Assembly (NCBI GenBank): GCA_021780615.1
Contig: JAJXYJ010000008.1
Span: 1 to 42,796 of the forward strand
Source: a bacterium
GTDB lineage: Bacteria > Patescibacteriota > Minisyncoccia > UBA6257 > JAGOQP01
Direction: 5' to 3'
DNA: 42,796 nucleotides
Below, one piece after another: positions 15,917 through 40,003 of this stretch. Numbering within the stretch: position 1 is the first letter of the stretch; each line of letters begins with the position of its first letter. The translations under genes and the position numbers were made by a program. The notes under the pieces are model-generated. The model made no database searches. It saw nothing but the letters and a program-made list of their open reading frames with translations, and had not been told where the DNA came from.

Positions 15917-16127
15917 ACGAACCTCCATTCTTTTGTGACTAGATGTTGTTTTTCTTGTTCGTTTCCGAACGCGCTGTTCTATTGTGAAACCATCCTTTGC
16001 CTGCAAAAATTCTTTCTTGTAGAAAACTAAAAATACCATAGCATTCCGAACTGATTATGTCAAATGTATAAATATCGATGAATATAGCTTGTTTCTATTT
16101 AGTTTCGGATTTATGCTGTGCACATCT

Positions 16128-17834
16128 ATGACCCAACAGGAAGCCTTGGACATTTTAAAAAGCGGAGCAAACGTGTTCCTGACCGGCGAGCCCGGCTCGG
16201 GTAAAACGCACACAATCAACGAATACATTGGTTACCTGCATGACCATGGCATCAGTCCGGCAATCACGGCTTCCACAGGCATTGCGGCAACGCACATTAA
16301 CGGCATGACCATCCATTCATGGAGCGGCATAGGGATACAAAAAGTGTTTTCGGAAGATGATGTGGCGGCAATCGCGGGGCGCAAAAAAATTGCGTCGCGC
16401 ATCGCCAAAAACCGCATTCTGATCATTGACGAAATCTCAATGCTGGATGCGCAGACGCTGGATGCCGTTGAAACGGTGTGCCGGGCAGTCAAGCAGAGCG
16501 GCTTGCCGTGGGGCGGCATGCAAGTGGTGTTTGTGGGCGATTTTTTCCAACTGCCGCCTGTGTCCCGTGCCGGCGATCCGCCGCGGCAATTTGCATACCA
16601 ATCAAACGCCTGGCAGGATGCCCGTCCGGTTGTCTGTTATCTGAGCGAACAACACCGGCAGGATGATGCCACATTTCTTTCAATCCTTTCGTCAATTCGC
16701 ACGGGAGATATTGTGGAAGAAATCCACCATGTTCTTTCCCAAAAAGTGCGTGCGCCCAAAGGCAGCGGAGAGCACACAAGAATATACTCACATAACATGA
16801 ATGTCGACCGGGTCAATGATGATCGGCTGCGAGCATTGGATGGCAAAGAAAGGACGTTCGCCATGGGATCGCGCGGTCCCGAAGACTTGGTCAAGCAGCT
16901 CAAAAAAGGATGCCTTTCTCCCGAACTGTTGCGGTTGAAGGTCGGAGCAAAGGTGATGTTTACCAAAAATGATACTGAACACCAATTCGTGAACGGCACC
17001 ATCGGCACTGTGGAAGGATTTTCCAAAGAAGACGGTTCGCCCATTGTGCGCACGGAGCGCGGCTATGCCGTTGAGGTAGCCCAAGAAGAATGGTCTATCG
17101 TGGACGGCGAACGGACGCTGGCAAAAATTTTCCAATTGCCGCTGCGTTTGGCATGGGCGATTACGGTGCACAAGAGCCAGGGCATGACGCTCGATTCGGC
17201 AATCATGGACTTGTCTGATGCGTTTGAGTACGGGCAAGGATATGTGGCCTTGTCCCGCGTACGGGCCTTGGACGGCCTGCATTTAATTGGGTACAACGCG
17301 CGGGCGTTGGAAGTGCACCCCGACGTGCTGGAAGCGGACGTGGCATTCAGGCAGCAGTCGCTCGCAGCGCAACAAGAATTTTTGGCAATGTCTGATGCCG
17401 ACAAACTGCAAAGCCAAAAAGCATTCATAGTCCGCTGTGGCGGTGCGACACAAAAAGGAGAGAAAGGGAAAAAAGTAAAAAAGCACAAAGACCTTTCCGC
17501 CCGCCGCACGGGAGACAAAGAAAACACCCGTGACAAAACGGTGGCGTTGTGGCGGGAAGGCAAGGACGCCAAAGAAATCGCGCGCCTGCGCGGACTTGCA
17601 GAAGGCACGATTGTGGCGCACCTGGAAGAGTCATACATGAATGGCAGCATGGACATCGGCGAATTGCGGCGGCTGGCATCGCCGCGTTTGGTGCAGGCGC
17701 TACCCCAAATAGAAGCCGCATTCAAAGAACTCGGCATGGCAAAACTTTCCCCTGTGTTTGAAAAGCTGAAAGGGGAGTATTCCTACGACGACCTCCGCCT
17801 CGCCCGCATTCTTTTGAGCGCCACACCGCAGTGA
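16128..17834 (+). CDS. Pif1/RecD2-like DNA helicase with C-terminal helix-turn-helix domain
   Basis: A 568-residue superfamily 1B (5'-3') helicase. Motif I is FLTGEPGSGKTHT, motif Ia ASTGIAATHI, motif II ILIIDEISMLD, motif III VVFVGDFFQLPPV, and the C-terminal motifs are WAITVHKSQGMTLD and GYVALSRVRALDGL; the set and order are those of the Pif1 family. After ~residue 440 comes a basic linker, then a helicase-C-terminal HTH module (DKTVALWREGKDAKEIARLRGLAEGTIVAHL) like that of some RecQ/UvrD relatives. Likely roles are unwinding of G-quadruplexes or replication restart. The ATG at 16128 starts right before the conserved MTQQEAL; no SD. The gene is visibly richer in GC than the AT-rich cluster that follows, suggesting different histories. 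Confidence 0.92.
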   Translation: MTQQEALDILKSGANVFLTGEPGSGKTHTINEYIGYLHDHGISPAITASTGIAATHINGMTIHSWSGIGIQKVFSEDDVAAIAGRKKIASRIAKNRILIIDEISMLDAQTLDAVETVCRAVKQSGLPWGGMQVVFVGDFFQLPPVSRAGDPPRQFAYQSNAWQDARPVVCYLSEQHRQDDATFLSILSSIRTGDIVEEIHHVLSQKVRAPKGSGEHTRIYSHNMNVDRVNDDRLRALDGKERTFAMGSRGPEDLVKQLKKGCLSPELLRLKVGAKVMFTKNDTEHQFVNGTIGTVEGFSKEDGSPIVRTERGYAVEVAQEEWSIVDGERTLAKIFQLPLRLAWAITVHKSQGMTLDSAIMDLSDAFEYGQGYVALSRVRALDGLHLIGYNARALEVHPDVLEADVAFRQQSLAAQQEFLAMSDADKLQSQKAFIVRCGGATQKGEKGKKVKKHKDLSARRTGDKENTRDKTVALWREGKDAKEIARLRGLAEGTIVAHLEESYMNGSMDIGELRRLASPRLVQALPQIEAAFKELGMAKLSPVFEKLKGEYSYDDLRLARILLSATPQ

Positions 17835-17924
17835 TTCCTTTACGCCCCTCCTGGCGAGGGGTATACTTCATGCATCTGTATGAAGATTAAGGAATCGTTT
17901 AAAATCACTAAAAAAGGGTGAGGT

Positions 17925-17999
17925 ATGCAAGAGGAAATAGCCAAACAAATAAGATTTGCCACACTTATTATAAAAAATGAGATGCTTTGGTATTTGTAA
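17925..17999 (+). CDS. 24-aa ORF upstream of the helicase cluster
   Basis: GGGTGAGGT precedes an ATG at 17925 that opens 24 codons (MQEEIAKQIRFATLIIKNEM, then LWYL). The stop falls 5 nt before the helicase ATG at 18005, in a different frame. It could be a leader peptide that couples translation into the helicase gene. It is too short to judge from composition. Confidence 0.3.
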   Translation: MQEEIAKQIRFATLIIKNEMLWYL

Positions 18000-18004
18000 A
18001 ATTT

Positions 18005-21000
18005 ATGTCCTATAGAACTAGAAAATTTGATGCGAGGAAATATTGGGCTAACAAGTCTTACTGTATCATTTGTAAAGAACATAAAGTTAAGAATGGTCAG
18101 ATTTGTGGAGAATGCGAAAAGAAAGGTGATTTTAAAGAAGGAACGACCGAGATAAATATAGGTAAGATAACTGACGAAAATTTAATTGCTCAATTCACAG
18201 CTCAGGAACAAGAACGGACACAAGCCCCTGAACGAGTCGTTTCTCTTGTGGGTTATTTGAAAGATTGCGCTCAAGCGATCATGAGGTCAGTTGCGCTTAC
18301 CAATATAACAACAGGTGAAATTGAATTTATACCTCTTGAGCCGGATGCACTCCAACAATTAGCTGATGGACAAATCAAGATAAAAGGCAAAGAGGCTCTT
18401 GATATGCTTTACAAGGTTAGAGCCCAAGCTTCAGAGTTCGAGATTATTTTAGGGACTCTCTTTGTGAAAGGATATAAAGGCAATGGTAATCGAATAAGTA
18501 AGATTAACGCACCTCTTCTATATTTAAAAATCGATGCTGAAAAGACCGATGACGATGATGTGATTTTTACCCTTAAAGATGACGATACTGTTCACCTCAA
18601 TCAATCTCTTATTGCAGGAATAACAAGTGCTAAAAATGATGAGGAACTCGAAGTGCGTTTTCAAGACCTTTATTCTGCTATTCCCGAATGGCCACTTACT
18701 CTTGATTCAATTCGCAAATTTTTCAGTAGTTTAACCAATTATTTCCCCGAGGTTTTCAAGGAGGGTGATTTTTCTAATTTTATAGAATTTAACGAAAACG
18801 ACGCGGACAAAGAAGGATATAAACTTTGCCCTTCGCATTGCATCATTCTTGCACCACGACAGGAGGGAGAAGGTACGGTAGTGGAGGAGTTGGGTGGCAT
18901 ACTTTCAGACACAAAAGATAAAACAGCATTAGATTTTCTATTGCTTGAAAATCCATTGACTGCTGGTAACCCGGTTTCATCGGTGGATAATAAAACTGCT
19001 AGCGGATTTTCTGAACCAGCTTCATCCGAGGATGCCAACTGGCATAATCTTTTCCCTTTCGATTTAAGCGACACCCAGAAGAAAATTGTATTGAATGCCA
19101 GAAAAAATAATCTCACTGTTGTTTCGGGGCCTCCGGGTACTGGGAAATCATACACAATCGCGGCAATAATTTTAGACCATCTTCTCGGTGGCAAGAGAGT
19201 GCTCTTTGTATCAAGGATGGATAAAGCTGTCGATGTAGTTTCGTCCTGGCTTGAAGAATTTGTTGGGCCCTACTCAGTAGCTCGTTCGGGAGCACGTAAA
19301 GCACAAAGAGCTCTTTCCGATAAACTCGATGCTATTACTGGACCCAATAGTCCTGTAAGTCCTTATAACAAGAAACAAATAGAAGATGCGATTAAAGAAC
19401 ACGAGAAGGCACAGAAAAAACTAGCGGAGCTCGAAGAAGAATTTACTGATGCGATTACCAATGAACGCAGTTGGGCTGGAGTACAAGAAAAAATTGAGGA
19501 TATAAATTCTCGACTTAGTATTGATTTTGAGTCAGATGGTCTTTCGATAAAAAAAGCAAAGGCATCAAAGCTTAAGGAGAAAATCAAAGGTGCCGACGCT
19601 TTGTTGAGAAATAAAGGATTTTTTATACAGACTTGGTGGGGTAACCGAACTATAAAGAGCATACGTTCTCGACTTGGTGCTCCCGAAAACACAACGGCTC
19701 AAGATTTAATTTTAATGGCAGAGCGAATTGAGAACGAAAGAGTTAAAGAAGAATTAGAAAACGAAATCGCTAAATTTGACGCCGTCGATAAGATTTGGAC
19801 AGAGATTCAAGCCCTCAAGATTCAACTGCGAACACTTGCGCTCAATAATCTCAAGGCGCGCCTTCTCGGCAATCTTCATCTCATTGTCCATAACTACGAA
19901 AAGAGAGTGGAACTAAAAAAGTTTGTTAAATCCTTGAGAACCGCCAATATCCGAGAGAAGCTTGCTCTACTTAAGCAAGTCAAAACTGAAACACTTCTTG
20001 TCTCTTTTCCATGTTGGGCAAGTACTACTTACCACCTATCGCAGATTTTACCTATCCAGCCCGGTATGTTCGACCTTGTTATTTTTGATGAGGCAAGTCA
20101 ATGTGATCTAGCTTCTGCAATACCAGCACTTTATCGTGCCAATAGAGCGTTAATTGTTGGGGACCCGAAACAACTCAACCATGTAGTTTTTCTCGGTAAA
20201 CAAGCAGAGTATTCCTCGTTCGCAAAAAATAATGTGTCACCTGATATACAGGCGAATTATCGATATTCAACAAACAGTCTTTTTGATGTAGCTGAAAATC
20301 TTGTGCCCCAAGCAAACTACTTTATGCTGGATGAACATTTCCGTTCCGATCCTCATATCATTGGATTTTCAAACAAGATGTTTTATGAAGATCAAATTCG
20401 CATAATGACACATAAGCCGAAAATGGGACTGATCGACCAAGAGGCACCTATTCAACTCGATTATGTAAAAGGTAAAAGAAGTGAAGGAGCCGCAAATCCG
20501 ACAGAAATTGAGGCTATATTTAAGCATGTCAGACAAATTATTGATCAATCTCCAAGTGATAAGCCAACCACTATAGGAATCCTTTCTCCATTCAGAGATC
20601 AAGTAAATGCGATAACAAAAGCACTTCCAGGATATCTTTCGCTTACTGAAGTAGAACGACACAAGATTGTGGTAGGTACTGCACATAGTTTGCAAGGTGA
20701 CGAAAAAGATATTGTAATTCTTTCTCTATCGCTTGATCCAAAATTTCATCACGGTACACTTAATTTTTTGGAGAAACCAAATGTTTTCAATGTTTCTATT
20801 ACGCGTGCAAAAAAGCGACTTATTGTCGTGTCGTCTGTAAAAACCGATGACTTACCAAACGGATTATTAAAGGAATTTCTTATTCATGCATCTCAAGTCC
20901 CAGCTTCTGAAATACCCCGAGGAATATTTGATTCAAAGTTTGAAGAACAAGTCTCCCAAGCTTTAGAGAGGACAGGTCTAAAGGTTTGGCCACAATATCA

Positions 21001-21241
21001 AGCGGCAGGATTTTATATTGATTTAGTTGTCGGAGACGGAAAGAGTTGGATTGCAGTTGAATGTGATGGACCCACGCACTTTGATATGAAGGAAGGCCAA
21101 AATTTTTACGATGTGTGGAGACAGAACATTCTTGAAAGGGCTGGCTGGAGATTTATTCGCATTTCTCATAGAGATTGGGAACGTGATTCTAATAGTCAAA
21201 TTGAAAAGGTCAAACAAGCATTAATATCAATAAATATTTAA
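18005..21241 (+). CDS. Upf1/COG1112-type SF1 helicase with N-terminal zinc ribbon and C-terminal DUF559/Vsr-like nuclease
   Basis: A 1078-residue multidomain protein. Residues ~20-37 hold a zinc ribbon (CIICKEHKVKNGQICGEC). The helicase core begins near 365: Walker A SGPPGTGKSYT, then a ~250-residue insertion predicted as coiled coil (KEHEKAQKKLAELEEEF), Walker B LVIFDEASQCD (~692), GDPKQL (~719), and motifs V/VI HSLQGDEKDIVILS and NVSITRAKKRL (~893-935). The C-terminal ~100 residues contain the PD-(D/E)XK-type core FYIDLVVG...IAVECDGPTH, as in DUF559/Vsr domains. Related helicase-nuclease fusions occur in several anti-phage systems. ATG 18005 follows a 24-codon ORF by 5 nt; the next gene starts 5 nt after its stop. 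The insertion and N-terminal ~300 residues are unassigned. Confidence 0.88.
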   Translation: MSYRTRKFDARKYWANKSYCIICKEHKVKNGQICGECEKKGDFKEGTTEINIGKITDENLIAQFTAQEQERTQAPERVVSLVGYLKDCAQAIMRSVALTNITTGEIEFIPLEPDALQQLADGQIKIKGKEALDMLYKVRAQASEFEIILGTLFVKGYKGNGNRISKINAPLLYLKIDAEKTDDDDVIFTLKDDDTVHLNQSLIAGITSAKNDEELEVRFQDLYSAIPEWPLTLDSIRKFFSSLTNYFPEVFKEGDFSNFIEFNENDADKEGYKLCPSHCIILAPRQEGEGTVVEELGGILSDTKDKTALDFLLLENPLTAGNPVSSVDNKTASGFSEPASSEDANWHNLFPFDLSDTQKKIVLNARKNNLTVVSGPPGTGKSYTIAAIILDHLLGGKRVLFVSRMDKAVDVVSSWLEEFVGPYSVARSGARKAQRALSDKLDAITGPNSPVSPYNKKQIEDAIKEHEKAQKKLAELEEEFTDAITNERSWAGVQEKIEDINSRLSIDFESDGLSIKKAKASKLKEKIKGADALLRNKGFFIQTWWGNRTIKSIRSRLGAPENTTAQDLILMAERIENERVKEELENEIAKFDAVDKIWTEIQALKIQLRTLALNNLKARLLGNLHLIVHNYEKRVELKKFVKSLRTANIREKLALLKQVKTETLLVSFPCWASTTYHLSQILPIQPGMFDLVIFDEASQCDLASAIPALYRANRALIVGDPKQLNHVVFLGKQAEYSSFAKNNVSPDIQANYRYSTNSLFDVAENLVPQANYFMLDEHFRSDPHIIGFSNKMFYEDQIRIMTHKPKMGLIDQEAPIQLDYVKGKRSEGAANPTEIEAIFKHVRQIIDQSPSDKPTTIGILSPFRDQVNAITKALPGYLSLTEVERHKIVVGTAHSLQGDEKDIVILSLSLDPKFHHGTLNFLEKPNVFNVSITRAKKRLIVVSSVKTDDLPNGLLKEFLIHASQVPASEIPRGIFDSKFEEQVSQALERTGLKVWPQYQAAGFYIDLVVGDGKSWIAVECDGPTHFDMKEGQNFYDVWRQNILERAGWRFIRISHRDWERDSNSQIEKVKQALISINI

Positions 21242-21246
21242 AAAAT

Positions 21247-22191
21247 ATGAAGATAGAAATTTTTGAAGAAGACGGAGATAATACACTTTCATTTGGCGAT
21301 AAATACGCAGATTTTACGATCGATGTATTTCCAGACTCAAAAACATATCAATCCAGGATGAGTTTAAAGGATGATGTTTACTACCGTACCGAAAAATTTG
21401 AGTATCGTATTCAAGCTAATCCCCTAAAAGTAGAAACTCGACTAACCGAACGAGTAGATGAGCCACCAGAACGATATTGCGTAAAAGACGGTATTGTTTT
21501 AGAGTCCGATATTTTAGCGGATAGAAAAGAAATGGCCTCAATGAGTTCAATGACCAAAGAGTTTATTGATGGTCTTAAAAAAGAAGTTGAATGGCATGAG
21601 GACTGGGCGGGCAATCCTGTGTCTATGTATATACTTTCTAAACATTCTGAAATAATTTCTCCGGATGATTATCGTCGTCATTTGCGACAGTTCTCCGAAA
21701 AAATAAAAATCGCAACACATAAAATTGAGAAAATTCTCGCATCAGATTCAACGGGATTAAAAGTTACCGATAAATATACTGATTCGGGGCGAGCGATTTG
21801 GTATCCAAAAGAAAAACAGGACAGCATGTCAGAGGAGGAAACTAAAAAAGCCATTGAGCATGCACATAAAATCCAAGAGAAACTATTTGATCAAAAATCG
21901 AAAGAATATGTTGGCATTTCAGAGAGCGAGTTTAGATCAACTAAAGATATTCTGGAAAATATCGAGACATTTCTAAATAAAAAACCTGTTTCTGCTAAAA
22001 AAGAATTAGAACCAAAAATATCAAAAACGAAAGGATTTATCATATCTTTGCTTCTGACTTTATTCCTTTCGTGGATTGTAAGTTGGTTTGTAGATATAAA
22101 CCCATTTTTGATTTTTATTATTGTGCAGGTTGTTGCCTTTGCGCAAAGCATAATCGGCGGATGGCTGGGAAGATTACTTGAACAAAAATAA
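21247..22191 (+). CDS. membrane-anchored hypothetical protein of the helicase cluster
   Basis: A 314-residue protein with no recognised family. The N-terminal ~115 residues look beta-rich, the middle is helical and charged (for example KKAIEHAHKIQEKLFDQKSK), and the C-terminus has two adjacent membrane helices (GFIISLLLTLFLSWIVSWFV and FLIFIIVQVVAFAQSIIGGW) separated by DINP. The soluble part would face the cytoplasm. It starts 5 nt after the helicase stop and ends 9 nt before rmuC, so it is translated within the same operon. A C-terminally membrane-tethered partner of nucleases recalls membrane-associated effectors of defence systems, but the sequence shows no catalytic motif. Confidence 0.7.
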   Translation: MKIEIFEEDGDNTLSFGDKYADFTIDVFPDSKTYQSRMSLKDDVYYRTEKFEYRIQANPLKVETRLTERVDEPPERYCVKDGIVLESDILADRKEMASMSSMTKEFIDGLKKEVEWHEDWAGNPVSMYILSKHSEIISPDDYRRHLRQFSEKIKIATHKIEKILASDSTGLKVTDKYTDSGRAIWYPKEKQDSMSEEETKKAIEHAHKIQEKLFDQKSKEYVGISESEFRSTKDILENIETFLNKKPVSAKKELEPKISKTKGFIISLLLTLFLSWIVSWFVDINPFLIFIIVQVVAFAQSIIGGWLGRLLEQK

Positions 22192-22200
22192 ATTAATGGT

Positions 22201-23517
22201 ATGACACAAATTTTATTAATCCTAAATACGATAGGAATCAGCGTAATAATTTTTCTTTTGATTAAGAACAAAGGTGTTGATTATGTGGCTAAAATTTCAA
22301 CGCTATTCGATAACTTCTCTGAAAAGAATGGTAGTGCTTTAAAGGATGAAATGACTCGAAATAGGCAGGAAGTCGCCGAATCTGAAAAAAGATTAAGACA
22401 AGAAATTGCTACTCTTTTTAAGAGTTTTGGTGATCCCGTAGAAAGACGCATGGCTGATCTCTCAACTACGCAAAATAAAAATTTTGAGGGATTTTCTAGT
22501 AAGCTCACTGAGCTGATTGATAAAAATGAGGCTAAAATAGATAAAGTTAAAGAAGTGGTAGAGAAAAAGCTTGAAGGAATTCAAAAAGATAATGGCGAAA
22601 AACTTGACGCTATGCGAGTGACCGTTGACGAAAAATTGCATGCCACGCTAGAAAAAAGATTCGGCGAATCATTCAAGGTTGTTAGTGATAGACTTGAGGC
22701 AGTCCATAAGGGACTTGGTGAAATGCAGGCGCTTGCATTAGGAGTCGGTGATCTTAAAAAAGTGCTTAGCAATGTAAAATCTAGGGGCACTTGGGGTGAA
22801 GCACAGCTAAGTAATTTGATAGAGGAAATTCTTACTCCTGAACAATACGAAAAGAATGTTAAAACTAAAAAATCCAGCAAAGATGTTGTTGAATATGCCA
22901 TTAAGCTACCCGGAAATGATGAGGATATAAAGCAAGTTTGGCTACCTATTGATGCAAAATTTCCATTGGAGGACTACCAACGTTTAATTGAGGCTCAGGA
23001 ACAAGGGGATCTACTTTTGATTGAAAAATTAAGTAAGTCGTTGGAAACCAGAATTAAATCTGAAGCCAAAGATATACGAGACAAGTATCTTAACCCTCCA
23101 TACACAACTGACTTTGGAATTCTATTTGTGCCTATAGAAAGTTTGTATGCTGAAGTTTTAAGACGACCCGGATTATTTGAACAAATACGTCGAGAATATC
23201 GGGTAATTATTGCTGGACCGACAACGACACAAGTTATCTTGAATAGTCTCCAGATGGGTTTTAGAACGCTTACTATTCAAAAGCGATCTAGTGAAGTTTG
23301 GACACTACTTGGGGCAGTAAAAACCGAATTTAGTAAATTTGGTGATTTGTTAGAAAAAACCCACAAGAAAATGCAAGAAGCAAGTAACACTATTGAGGAT
23401 GCCGTTACTAAAACTAGGACTATTGAGAGAAAATTAAACAAGGTGCAAAATCTGCCCGTTGCAGAAGCCGAAAAATTAATTTTAGAGGCACAAGAGGAGG
23501 ATGTTGCCCAATCTTAA
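22201..23517 (+). CDS. rmuC: RmuC family DNA recombination/nuclease-like protein
   Basis: A 438-residue protein with the classic RmuC plan: an N-terminal membrane anchor (ILLILNTIGISVIIFLLI), a long coiled coil (~35-190), then the RmuC domain with SRGTWGEAQLSNLIEEIL, VWLPIDAKFPLEDYQRL, YTTDFGILFVPIESLYAEVL and the IIAGPTTTQVILNSL segment. The D-A-K-F-P-L-E core belongs to a divergent PD-(D/E)XK-like fold. RmuC limits recombination at inverted repeats in E. coli. It is unusual as the middle gene of a cluster with a helicase and two more nuclease-like proteins; there it may be a dedicated component, not a housekeeping copy. Whether another rmuC exists elsewhere in the genome cannot be seen. Confidence 0.92.
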   Translation: MTQILLILNTIGISVIIFLLIKNKGVDYVAKISTLFDNFSEKNGSALKDEMTRNRQEVAESEKRLRQEIATLFKSFGDPVERRMADLSTTQNKNFEGFSSKLTELIDKNEAKIDKVKEVVEKKLEGIQKDNGEKLDAMRVTVDEKLHATLEKRFGESFKVVSDRLEAVHKGLGEMQALALGVGDLKKVLSNVKSRGTWGEAQLSNLIEEILTPEQYEKNVKTKKSSKDVVEYAIKLPGNDEDIKQVWLPIDAKFPLEDYQRLIEAQEQGDLLLIEKLSKSLETRIKSEAKDIRDKYLNPPYTTDFGILFVPIESLYAEVLRRPGLFEQIRREYRVIIAGPTTTQVILNSLQMGFRTLTIQKRSSEVWTLLGAVKTEFSKFGDLLEKTHKKMQEASNTIEDAVTKTRTIERKLNKVQNLPVAEAEKLILEAQEEDVAQS

Positions 23518-23529
23518 CTTAGCCAGTGT

Positions 23530-25023
23530 ATGAAATTATCAAAAACTAATTTTCTAATATGTCTCGATTGTGCTAAGAATGCTTGGCTTAAAATTCACAA
23601 ACCAGAGATATATAAGAAAAAACAACTGTCTTCTTTTGAATTAAATATCATTGATACTGGCAATCAAATTGACGAACTTGCTCATGGCCTTTTTCCCAAC
23701 GGAACGCTTGTAGAATCTCGCGACGATACAGAACTTACAAAGAAACTTATAGCCGATAAGACACCGGTTATTTATCAGCCGGTTTTTTCTACTGATAAAT
23801 ATATTACAGCTTCTGATATTTTTGTTTGGAATTCAGATACAAATATCTATGATCTGTATGAAGTAAAATCATCAACAGCTTCCGAAGAAGATGGTGGAAG
23901 AAAGACTGAAGACTATTTGATAGACATGGCTTTCCAAAAGAATGTTTTGAATTATTTAGGTATTCAGGTTGGTACACTTAATTTAATTAGACTTAATAAA
24001 GAGTATGTTCGCACCGGAGACATTAATTTGAAAGAATTATTTTTAATTGAAAATTTAACCGAACAAGTAAATAAAAACCTTGAGGATATTAGACAAAAAA
24101 TGGAAGGTGCTCACGAACTGTTGTCTAAGGAAGCCGAGCCTCATGGACATTGTGATTGTATGTTAAAGGGACGGAATTCCCACTGTACAACTTCGTGGTA
24201 TTCAAATTCAGATCTCCCAGAATATCCCGTGCACGCGATTGCACGAATTCACAAGAAAAAACTGACGGAGTTGGTAGATAATAATATTTTTAGTATCTAT
24301 GATGTTCCGGATGATTTTGAATTATCTGATAACCAACGAAGACAAGTAAATACCGCACAATCTGGAAAAGAGTATATTGATAAAAAAGGCATTTCAGAAT
24401 TTTTAAAGACAATGAAATACCCCTTAGCTTTTCTTGATTACGAAACGTATCCTTCTGCGATACCAAAATATAATGGATATCGACCGTACCAGCAGATTCC
24501 ATTTCAGTTTTCACTCCATGTGATTGAATCTCTAGAAAGCGAATCCGTCCATTATGACTTTATTTATACAAATCAAGACTGTCCAGATGAATATTTTTCG
24601 GAAGCACTAAAAAAATATCTTCCAAAAACAGGAAGTGTTATCGTTTGGAGCCAAAAGTTTGAGCAAGGCATTAATAAACAGCTTGGCGAACGTCTGCCTG
24701 AATATAAAGATTTTATGCAAAATGTTAACAATCGAGTTGTTGACCTAATGATTCCATTTTTTGGTAAAACAACAATGTATGATCATCCTAAATTTAAGGG
24801 CAGTGCGTCAATCAAGTATGTTTTACCGGCTCTTGTACCACATCTATCATATAAAAATATGCATATCCAAGAAGGAGGTACCGCATCAGATACATGGAAT
24901 CGTATTGTGTCCGGAGAATATTCTGAGGATGATAAAAATATGAAAATACAAGCATTAAAGGATTACTGTCACCTTGATACTTTGGCGATGGTTGAAATTT
25001 GGAGAGTTTTAAGATCGGTATAA
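23530..25023 (+). CDS. DUF2779 protein: Cas4/RecB-like nuclease fused to DEDD exonuclease-like domain
   Basis: A 497-residue protein. Its N-terminal half fits a Cas4/RecB-like nuclease: CLDC near residue 11, ITASDIFVW and YDLYEVKSST (D...E-V-K core, ~97-117), then a CDC...C group (~207-217) that could complete an Fe-S cluster with the first cysteines. The second half opens with LAFLDYETYPSAIPKYNGYR (D-x-E at ~302-304), continues with PYQQIPFQFSLH, VIVWSQKFEQGI and VVDLMIPFF, and ends with YCHLDTLAMVEIW (~477), the order of motifs in a DEDD 3'-5' exonuclease. This combination is the DUF2779 family (PF11074-like). It follows rmuC by 12 nt and is clearly co-transcribed. Biological function is not established. 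Confidence 0.85.
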   Translation: MKLSKTNFLICLDCAKNAWLKIHKPEIYKKKQLSSFELNIIDTGNQIDELAHGLFPNGTLVESRDDTELTKKLIADKTPVIYQPVFSTDKYITASDIFVWNSDTNIYDLYEVKSSTASEEDGGRKTEDYLIDMAFQKNVLNYLGIQVGTLNLIRLNKEYVRTGDINLKELFLIENLTEQVNKNLEDIRQKMEGAHELLSKEAEPHGHCDCMLKGRNSHCTTSWYSNSDLPEYPVHAIARIHKKKLTELVDNNIFSIYDVPDDFELSDNQRRQVNTAQSGKEYIDKKGISEFLKTMKYPLAFLDYETYPSAIPKYNGYRPYQQIPFQFSLHVIESLESESVHYDFIYTNQDCPDEYFSEALKKYLPKTGSVIVWSQKFEQGINKQLGERLPEYKDFMQNVNNRVVDLMIPFFGKTTMYDHPKFKGSASIKYVLPALVPHLSYKNMHIQEGGTASDTWNRIVSGEYSEDDKNMKIQALKDYCHLDTLAMVEIWRVLRSV

Positions 25024-29329: not shown

Positions 29330-30616
29330 ATGCGATTACATACCATCATAACAAAAGCGGCGGCAATCGCGGGTATCGCGGTTGTGGGTATCGCAATGGC
29401 GGCAACGTATGCCGTTGCCCAAACAGAAGGATCGTCTTCTCAAAATATGACATTTCCCATTTCTGAATTGGGAAATTGTGCGGATCAAAATGCATGCCAT
29501 GCGTATTGTAATGTGGCGGCGCACATGCAGGCATGCACGACGTTTGCGCAAAATCACGGGCTTGAGAGCGCGGGTGATGCCCACAAGGCGGAACAATTTG
29601 CCCAGCTGTTGGCGCAGGGCGCCGGGCCGGGTGGATGCAACAGTCCCGATGCATGCGATGCATACTGCACGACCATCAGTCATTTAAATACCTGTGTGGC
29701 GTTTGCCAAGGCACACAACTTTACCGACCAAAATTTGGCGCAAGGAGAGCGGGTGGCAACATACCTGCAATCGGGTGGACATACGCCGGGCAACTGCACA
29801 TCCAAAGATACCTGCGAAGCATATTGCCAAGACCAAAGTCATCAGCAGGAGTGTATGCAATTTGCGCAAGCAGTGGGCATGCAGGGGGGTATGGGCGGTT
29901 CAGACCACGGTCAACAGACGTCTCCGGAAATGCAGCAGAAGTTTTCGGCATTATTACAGAGCGGCAAAACGCCGGGGGGATGCACCACCTTGCAGGCATG
30001 CGAAACGTATTGCAGTGATCCGAGTCACGGAAGTGCGTGCGGCGATTTTGGTGCGGCAATGGGAGGTGTACAGGGCAATCAGAGGGTGACACAACCGGGC
30101 CCCGGCGGATGCACGTCGGACGCCACGTGCAAAGCATATTGTGCAGATCCGACACACGCACAAGAATGTGCACAGTTTGCGCATCAATCGAATTACAAAG
30201 AAAATGTGCAAAGCCCCGGCGGATGCACGTCGGACGCCACGTGCAAAGCATATTGTGCAGATCCTGCGCATGCACAAGAATGCGCACAGTTTTCCCATCA
30301 ATCAAACTACGTACAAGGAAATGATAAGGGATATGGCTTACCGGAAGGACAGCGATGCGGATCCGATCAGTATTTCAATGGTACTGTATGCGTGCAATCC
30401 GGCGCTCCGTGTCAGGCTGGCTCGCCCTGTGTACCTCCGTCATGCCCTCCGGGTCAGACGTGCAATACCGACCTGCAGCAGGGTGGACAAATGCCTCCGC
30501 AGGGGCAATCGCCGATGCCGGGGCCTTCTTCAAGCACCGACCAACAGCAGGGGAATGTGTTGGGAATTTTTGGAGGGTTTTTGAAAAGCGTTGAGCAAAC
30601 TCTTTTGGGGCATTAA
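29330..30616 (+). CDS. secreted Cys-rich repeat protein (six C-x5-C-x3-C units)
   Basis: A 428-residue exported protein: Sec signal peptide (AIAGIAVVGIAMAATYAVA|QTE) then six Cys-repeat units of ~36-50 residues. Each unit follows G-G/N-C-x5-C-x-x-Y-C-x8-9-C-x-x-F (for example GGCTSDATCKAYCADP...ECAQF). The last two units are almost identical, with a 114-nt spacing at DNA level (from 30099 and 30213), pointing to recent duplication. After the repeats comes a second Cys-rich section (GQRCGSDQYFNGTVC; CQAGSPCVPPSCPPGQTC) and a Pro/Gln-rich tail ending in a short hydrophobic helix. Four Cys per unit suggest two disulfides each. The repeat is familiar from Patescibacteria exported proteins; its function is unknown, likely surface or host contact. 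Confidence 0.85.
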   Translation: MRLHTIITKAAAIAGIAVVGIAMAATYAVAQTEGSSSQNMTFPISELGNCADQNACHAYCNVAAHMQACTTFAQNHGLESAGDAHKAEQFAQLLAQGAGPGGCNSPDACDAYCTTISHLNTCVAFAKAHNFTDQNLAQGERVATYLQSGGHTPGNCTSKDTCEAYCQDQSHQQECMQFAQAVGMQGGMGGSDHGQQTSPEMQQKFSALLQSGKTPGGCTTLQACETYCSDPSHGSACGDFGAAMGGVQGNQRVTQPGPGGCTSDATCKAYCADPTHAQECAQFAHQSNYKENVQSPGGCTSDATCKAYCADPAHAQECAQFSHQSNYVQGNDKGYGLPEGQRCGSDQYFNGTVCVQSGAPCQAGSPCVPPSCPPGQTCNTDLQQGGQMPPQGQSPMPGPSSSTDQQQGNVLGIFGGFLKSVEQTLLGH

Positions 30617-36440: not shown

Positions 36441-37415
36441 ATGATGCATCAAAAAAAATGGCTGATATATATCGTTATAGGACTTATAGTGAGCATGGGG
36501 GGAGTTGCATATTTTCTTTTATGCACGGCACCCGGAGGAAATACCATAGCGCGACAATTTACCATTCCGTTGGGAGAGACTCGTGTGAGTGTTGTTGCCA
36601 GATCATTGTATGATGATGGATTTATAAAAAATGCGGGAGCTTTCAGGATAGTTTTTTCTATGCGCGGAGGGGCTATAGAGCCGGGAGGATACCTGCTTTC
36701 TTCCGGGGATACTGTATGGGAAATTGCCCACATTCTATCATTGCCACCAACGCAAAAATGGGTAGTAATTCCTGAGGGGCTTCGCAAAGAAGAAATAGCT
36801 GTCATTCTTGCTCATACGTTTTTGTGGAGTAGTACCACCACACAGGAATGGATTACTTATGATACTGCTCAAAACCCGGACTATACTGAGGGCGTCTATT
36901 TTCCTGACACATATTTAATTCCTCTCACTGAATCGCCAACACAAATTGCTAAACGATTTATTGCAAAATTTGAAGAAGAATTTGCACCCTATGCCACCGA
37001 AGCGTTGACACAAAATATCAAGTGGACGACAGTTATAAAGCTCGCTTCCATTGTGCAACGGGAAGCGGCGGGCAAAAACGATATGCCTCTTGTAGCCGGC
37101 ATTTTGTGAAATAGATTGTTGCACAATATGAAATTGCAAGTTGATTCGACGATACAATATGCACGGGGAAATACCGGCAAGGGGTGGTGGGCACCCATAA
37201 CCGTGGCAGATGAAAAAATAGATTCTCCCTATAACACATACCTTTATACCGGATTGCCGCCGCATCCGATTGATAATCCGGGACTTGATGCGATTAACGC
37301 GGTCCTCAATCCCGCAAAAACTAATTGTATGTATTATTTACATGACACATCTGGCAATATTCATTGTTCAGCGACGTATCAGGGACATCTCCAAAACATA
37401 CAAACGTATTTATAA
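36441..37415 (+). CDS. mltG: endolytic transglycosylase MltG, interrupted by an in-frame TGA
   Basis: The frame encodes a full-length MltG-like protein (YceG domain) of ~324 codons: N-terminal anchor helix (LIYIVIGLIVSMGGVAYFLL), LysM-like ETRVSVVARSLYDDGFI region, VVIPEGLRKEEIA, EGVYFPDTYLIP, and the catalytic ASIVQREA segment. At 37107-37109 a TGA interrupts DMPLVAGIL[TGA]NRLLHNMKLQ. The frame then continues correctly with QVDSTIQYA, YNTYLYTGLPPHPIDNPGLDAI and YYLHDTSGNIH. Homologues have Trp here (VAGILWNRL), so this is a TGG-to-TGA change. Alternatives are a recent nonsense mutation, leaky readthrough, or a base-call error. MltG cuts nascent peptidoglycan strands and sets glycan length. 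The fragment before the TGA lacks the C-terminal part of the catalytic domain. Confidence 0.85.
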
Positions 37416-37491
37416 GAAGTAATAAAAAATCAAATTGTTTTTTTACGATAGTGATGATACATTGAATTCATATTTTAAAATTTTATTCCCT

Positions 37492-37806
37492 ATGAAAGAT
37501 GTTCAAAAACAAGTTGATGAATGGGTAACACAATACAAGGTTGGCTATTTTAAGCCTTTAGAAATTATTGCGCGCCTCGCCGAAGAAACAGGAGAACTTG
37601 CTCGGGAAATAAACCATCGTTTTGGTCCCAAGAAGAAAAAGGCGACTGAAGATACAAAAGAAATAGAAGAGGAGATGGCGGATGTTATATTTACACTTGC
37701 ATGCTTAGCAAATTCTCTTGATTTGGATATGGATCGAGGCTTTGCGAAAGTTATGGATAAATGTTATGGACGGGATAAGGATCGGTGGGAGAAAAAAGAT
37801 GCATAA
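37492..37806 (+). CDS. MazG-like nucleotide pyrophosphohydrolase
   Basis: A 104-residue MazG-fold protein. The metal-binding pattern is ARLAEETGELAREIN (E-E-x-x-E) and KEIEEEMADVIFTLACLAN (E-x-x-D), as in the YpjD-like dNTP pyrophosphatases that remove non-canonical nucleotides. ATG 37492 gives the expected length and starts MKDVQKQVDEWV; the longer in-frame start is rejected. It lies 76 nt after mltG and stands alone. Confidence 0.9.
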   Translation: MKDVQKQVDEWVTQYKVGYFKPLEIIARLAEETGELAREINHRFGPKKKKATEDTKEIEEEMADVIFTLACLANSLDLDMDRGFAKVMDKCYGRDKDRWEKKDA

Positions 37807-38744: not shown

Positions 38745-38827
38745 GTTAAATGTGTATATGGCTGCTTATTTGTAGTATGGACGCTGGTCACTGTATACTT
38801 TATAGATTCTCCTTTATACTCATGTCC

Positions 38828-40003
38828 ATGGAACCACTTGCGTCAAAAATACGTCCACAATCATTGACTGATTTTGTTGGTCAAGAACATTTAGTGGGCA
38901 AAGGAAAGCCACTGGCCACCGCGATAGCAAAAAAACATCTTTTCTCATTTGTATTGTGGGGGCCTCCGGGGTGTGGCAAGACAACATTGGCGCGAATATA
39001 CGCCCAGAGTCTTAATGCTGAACTATATGAGTTGTCGGCAGTATCGGCGGGTAAAGACGATATTAAACACATTATTGAGGATGGAGCATTTGGCAGGCAA
39101 AAAGTGCTTTTTCTTGACGAAATCCACCGCTTTAATAAAGCTCAGCAAGATTTTTTATTGCCTTACGTTGAACGGGGGACGCTTGTGTTAGTGGGGGCAA
39201 CGACTGAAAATCCCAGTTTTGAGATTATTCCCGCACTCCTTTCTCGTTGTAGAGTTTTTGTTTTGCATGAATTGTCCGATGCTGATATAAAAAAAATTAT
39301 TGCCCGTACCGCCGTGCCCATGGATGAGGCGGCGGTGGCATGGATCTGTGCGATGGCACACGGTGATGCGCGTCAAGCAATTGCAGTCATTGAACATACC
39401 CAGCAACTGTATAAAAAAGTAACCGTAGAAACACTGACACAAACTCTGCAGTCAACCTTTATTCGGTATGACAAAAAAGGAGAAGAGCACTATGACACTA
39501 TCAGTGCGTTTATTAAAAGCATGCGCGCAAGTCAACCTGATGCGGCGCTATACTATGTAGCACGGATGATTGAAGCCGGTGAAGATCCGAAGTTCATTGC
39601 ACGGCGCATGGTGATATTTGCCAGTGAGGATATTGGTATGGCACAGCCCACCGCACTGGTCATTGCCAATGATGTGTTTCGTGCAGTGGAAACGATTGGA
39701 CTTCCTGAATGCGGCATCAATTTGGCTCACGGGGTGGTATATTTAGCGTTGTGTAAGAAAGATCGCAGCGCGTATAACGCATACCAAGAGGCGCTAGCTG
39801 ATGTCAAGGCGTTTGGCAATCTGCCCATTCCGATGGCTGTTCGCAATGCGCCGACAAAACTCATGAAAGAATTGGGGTATGGCAAGGGATACGAACATTA
39901 CAGCAAAGAAAGTTTCCTTCCTGCGAAACTGCGCACTAAAAAATATTTTAATCCATCAAAAGAAAAAAAGGACCCGCGGCATGATGCGTCATCAGCCGCA
40001 TGA
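38828..40003 (+). CDS. rarA: replication-associated recombination protein RarA/MgsA (AAA+ ATPase)
   Basis: A 391-residue clamp-loader-like ATPase. It starts MEPLASKIRPQSLTDFVGQEHLVG, with Walker A VLWGPPGCGKTTLARI, Walker B VLFLDEIHRFNKAQQD, sensor 1 LVGATTENPSFEI and arginine finger ALLSRCRVF, followed by the MgsA C-terminal region (YDTISAFIKSMRASQPDAALY, ASEDIGMAQP, YLALCKKDRSAYNAY) and the closing IPMAVRNAPTKLMKELGYGK. All functional motifs are intact. RarA acts at stalled replication forks. ATG 38828 or 38822 are equivalent starts. The C-terminus ends in a basic/His tail. Confidence 0.95.
   Translation: MEPLASKIRPQSLTDFVGQEHLVGKGKPLATAIAKKHLFSFVLWGPPGCGKTTLARIYAQSLNAELYELSAVSAGKDDIKHIIEDGAFGRQKVLFLDEIHRFNKAQQDFLLPYVERGTLVLVGATTENPSFEIIPALLSRCRVFVLHELSDADIKKIIARTAVPMDEAAVAWICAMAHGDARQAIAVIEHTQQLYKKVTVETLTQTLQSTFIRYDKKGEEHYDTISAFIKSMRASQPDAALYYVARMIEAGEDPKFIARRMVIFASEDIGMAQPTALVIANDVFRAVETIGLPECGINLAHGVVYLALCKKDRSAYNAYQEALADVKAFGNLPIPMAVRNAPTKLMKELGYGKGYEHYSKESFLPAKLRTKKYFNPSKEKKDPRHDASSAA

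Follow-up and report, generated by a model that had tools for sequence, protein, structure and literature searches.

Results

The window, the whole stretch of 42,796 nucleotides that was analysed, carries an mltG/yceG gene whose frame runs from an ATG at 36441 to a TAA at 37415 (324 codons plus the TAA). As the preliminary description had stated, this frame holds an in-frame TGA, and the TGA is its sole interruption. The features of the locus are as follows.

36441..37415, forward strand: mltG/yceG paralogue of the type found in the window (W-type); PF02618 at 229.5 bits when the frame is translated across the stop; intact orthologues 50–66% identical
37107..37109, forward strand: codon 223, a TGA in frame where Trp is expected; read from the sequence, with Trp (TGG) in all 31 aligned copies from relatives
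36441..37106, forward strand: N-terminal 222 amino acids, with membrane anchor, N-terminal domain and Glu208; Pfam profile positions 2–178 and alignment to 4iiw and 2r1f
37110..37412, forward strand: C-terminal 101 amino acids of the MltG domain past the stop; Pfam profile positions 181–274, with 24 of 24 invariant columns retained

The entire frame matches the Pfam YceG profile (PF02618) from position 2 to 274 with an E-value of 7e-68, and its score compares with a cut-off of 32.4 bits. Residues 1–222 alone match profile positions 2–178 (E = 1.3e-28) and the 101 residues past the TGA match positions 181–274 (E = 5.5e-32). The two halves are thus in register with the stop alone between them, which rules out a frameshift or a missing segment. 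At the sequence level the protein also matches the solved MltG structures 4iiw, 2r1f and 8yq7. Glu208, in the motif QREAAG, aligns with a conserved Glu of 4iiw and 2r1f, which we take to be the catalytic residue of MltG. In place of the uninterrupted frame of an MltG/YceG gene, the window gene has a TGA at codon 223. The 222-amino-acid product of normal termination would retain the membrane anchor and Glu208, the putative catalytic residue, and lack the last third of the domain, and it should be inactive. A split enzyme made by restart at one of the start codons just past the stop (TTG, TTG and ATG) was considered and judged unlikely to work; such a piece would carry neither the anchor nor the Glu. 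A MazG-like pyrophosphohydrolase lies after mltG at 37435–37806, and a similar-looking ORF, judged by look only, follows the orthologue in L091 (2470–2802). In L017 the MltG orthologue is immediately preceded by an ORF with a Pif1-like look.

A search of 244 order-level genomes found orthologues that are approximately 50–66% identical to the window gene. None of the matches listed has an internal stop, and the window gene is the only stopped one. A scan of genome contigs added two further relatives, from other lineages. In the alignment, which comprises 31 copies from 30 relatives (47–66% identical; two copies come from one locus), the position of codon 223 is Trp encoded by TGG in all 31, and TGA at this site is absent from every other genome examined. 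The earlier expectation of Trp at this position, and of one TGG-to-TGA change as the origin of the stop, therefore holds, since with TGG in all relatives a single transition accounts for the codon. Conservation continues past the stop. Compared with 29 relatives, the window gene keeps 24 of 24 invariant columns and all 38 columns with at least 90% conservation. Ranked by the gap between mean identity after and before the stop, the window gene is seventh from the largest among 30 sequences, so that divergence past the stop is not raised.

The genome has a second MltG of 331 amino acids, uninterrupted, on contig C22. This copy groups with the type that most members of the family carry as their sole MltG, and the window mltG falls in a separate, well-supported clade (98/99). 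The MltG content of the family is patchy. Two genomes that are 99–100% complete have the window type only (G005:C10 and G006:C14; loci L005 and L006), others have the other type only, one genome besides the present one has both (G007), and one has neither (G004).

In-frame stops elsewhere in the genome were surveyed by comparing proteins of relatives (368 ORFs, 121 with a match) with 20 stretches plus the window, together 410 kb of 612 kb. Across the 32,009 codons of this genome that aligned to relatives, no convincing in-frame stop occurs apart from the TGA of mltG, and the search for other UGA codons at Trp positions that had been proposed gave no second convincing case in these 410 kb. Two further flagged stops are artefacts: one, at L055:1544, lies inside a 23S rRNA gene, and the other, at L060:323, lies in an unaligned end with a flank identity of 24–32%. 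The assembly is a draft of 22 contigs with an estimated completeness of 96% and an estimated contamination of 0.36%. With a single convincing stop in 32,009 codons, errors are not widespread in the assembly.

UGA is a stop codon in this genome and the code is standard. Both release factors are intact, RF1 (L047) and RF2 with its SPF motif (L048, contig C6). At positions with Trp in relatives there are 209 TGG and one TGA, the latter being codon 223 of mltG. The 284 ORFs of at least 150 amino acids end in TAA (176), TAG (67) or TGA (41). At conserved gene ends, defined as those within five codons of the end of the relative's protein, 6 of 62 stops are TGA, and in 3 of these 6 the next base is A, as it is after codon 223. 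The three window genes that had been named as ending in UGA all do so: mscL (15185), identified from its sequence only, and rarA (38750–40003) and the Pif1-like gene (16089–17834), both with domain support. A whole-genome search found 28 tRNAs with one tRNA-Trp, anticodon CCA; the tRNA with a UCA anticodon that the preliminary description had proposed to look for was not found in this incomplete set, in agreement with ARAGORN on the 20 stretches. Together, the release factors, the tRNA-Trp with CCA, the TGA gene ends and the codon counts at Trp positions establish UGA as a stop, as had been argued from the window. tRNAs for Met, Asn, Asp and Cys were not seen among the 28 despite the completeness estimate, and therefore the absence of any tRNA from the assembly is weak evidence alone.

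Two other regions of the window were noted. The Pif1-like helicase gene begins a nearly consecutive series at 16089–25023, followed by a large SF1 helicase with an MTES_1575 endonuclease domain, RmuC and a DUF2779 protein. At 39–2268, a gene for an IrrE/M78-like peptidase overlaps in its coordinates a gene of the 'Beta protein' family (PF14350); the two look like a mobile or defence-related pair.

Discussion

Our data very probably reflect a one-base change from TGG to TGA that places a premature UGA stop, read by the standard code, in the W-type second MltG. Either a nonsense mutation would have arisen very recently, whether fixed or confined to a minority strain, or the change would be a consensus or base error. 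In this proposal, a TGG codon of the W-type MltG of an uncultured, small-genome, Paceibacterota/Minisyncoccota-like bacterium would have become TGA, through a very recent mutation in the sampled population or through an error in the assembly. If the stop is real, termination at codon 223 would leave an inactive fragment of 222 amino acids, and the C22 MltG would take over. The C22 copy probably covers the function of the window gene, and since MltG content varies within the family, loss of one of two copies should be tolerable. A long-lost 3' part of a gene should show decay. The lack of decay past the stop implies that the stop is young, is present in a minority of cells or is not real, or that the downstream part is still translated; we infer that the event is recent and that any real loss is very young. 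Full conservation past the stop is, however, also expected of a translated gene. Within the preferred explanation, a recent mutation or strain variant has about an even chance and a base error a slightly smaller one, and one event cannot tell mutation and error apart. The preliminary description had rightly listed mutation, readthrough, strain mixture and base error as options; the second MltG paralogue and the absent decay past the stop were missing from that account.

A special case of the same explanation, whose probability overlaps with it, is that the base is polymorphic and that a minority strain with the stop was sampled or joined by the assembly. A draft of 22 contigs leaves room for this, and the absent decay past the stop would fit a segregating variant, but the low estimated contamination speaks against it, and we consider this case rather unlikely.

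An unlikely explanation is tolerated or functional readthrough, in which low-rate decoding of the UGA by tRNA-Trp(CCA) yields some full-length MltG and keeps the gene under selection. The lack of decay past the stop agrees with it. Among the stop codons, TGA leaks most in E. coli reporters, where it is decoded mostly as Trp (PMC11126739). The tRNA-Trp here has a U11-A24 pair, and A24 is also what the Hirsh UGA suppressor of E. coli carries, a tRNA-Trp in which the G24A change promotes UGA reading (PMC13092985). However, A24 is common to the four other family members inspected, and two of these four (G005 and G007) have the gene without the stop. The tRNA also has a full 5-bp anticodon stem and an A at position 9, so that the routes through a 4-bp stem or A9C do not apply. 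In addition, the three conserved genes that end in TGA followed by A terminate where their orthologues do or close to it, and the codon 223 TGA has no counterpart in any other genome examined. The tRNA-Trp(CCA) gene lies at 29689–29760 of contig C5 (L115), and those of the four other family members (L116–L119) likewise have A24 paired with U11 and a 5-bp stem. Low-level readthrough as at any UGA is possible, with nothing specific to codon 223 and no sign of a dedicated mechanism. A stronger version, in which the A24-type tRNA-Trp sustains low, termination-limited production of the second MltG while UGA otherwise remains a stop, as an early single-gene step to recoding, would be quite improbable.

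Reassignment of UGA to Trp throughout the organism is known from another Minisyncoccia family of Patescibacteriota, JAKLIH01, in which RF2 and terminal UGA stops are absent (PMC13092985). In contrast, RF2 of the present genome is intact and retains the SPF motif, genes end in TGA, Trp positions are TGG with one exception, and a UCA tRNA was not found in the incomplete tRNA set; the release factor and codon evidence refute reassignment, to which we give almost no weight. Even less credible is selenocysteine at codon 223, for which the in-frame UGA is the sole point in favour. Within what the assembly covers, it is refuted: relatives have Trp rather than Cys, the best SelB match reaches 199 bits where the curated cut-off is 242.25 and is probably a different elongation factor, and no tRNA-Sec exceeds the gathering score.

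As it stands, a single premature stop in a duplicated cell-wall enzyme gene of a draft genome is of small significance; it is an ordinary one-base nonsense change, real or artefactual, in a redundant gene. If the stop were real and read through, it would be a single-gene intermediate informative on how recoding begins, given that a different family within this broad group has reassigned UGA to Trp (PMC13092985).

The window gene resembles the MltG/YceG endolytic murein transglycosylases (PF02618; 2r1f, 4iiw, 8yq7) in the whole domain in register, the conserved Glu and the LQVDST and SPYNTY-GLPP motifs, and differs from them by one TGA after residue 222. With the JAKLIH01 code (PMC13092985) it has in common that UGA stands at a Trp position and that the bacterial group is broadly the same, but here a UCA tRNA was not found, the UGA is at a single site, RF2 is kept and UGA serves as a stop. 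Although the window mltG is so far without the further decay of an ordinary young pseudogene, it resembles a nonsense allele or young pseudogene of a duplicated gene in its single premature stop and in the intact paralogue elsewhere in the genome.
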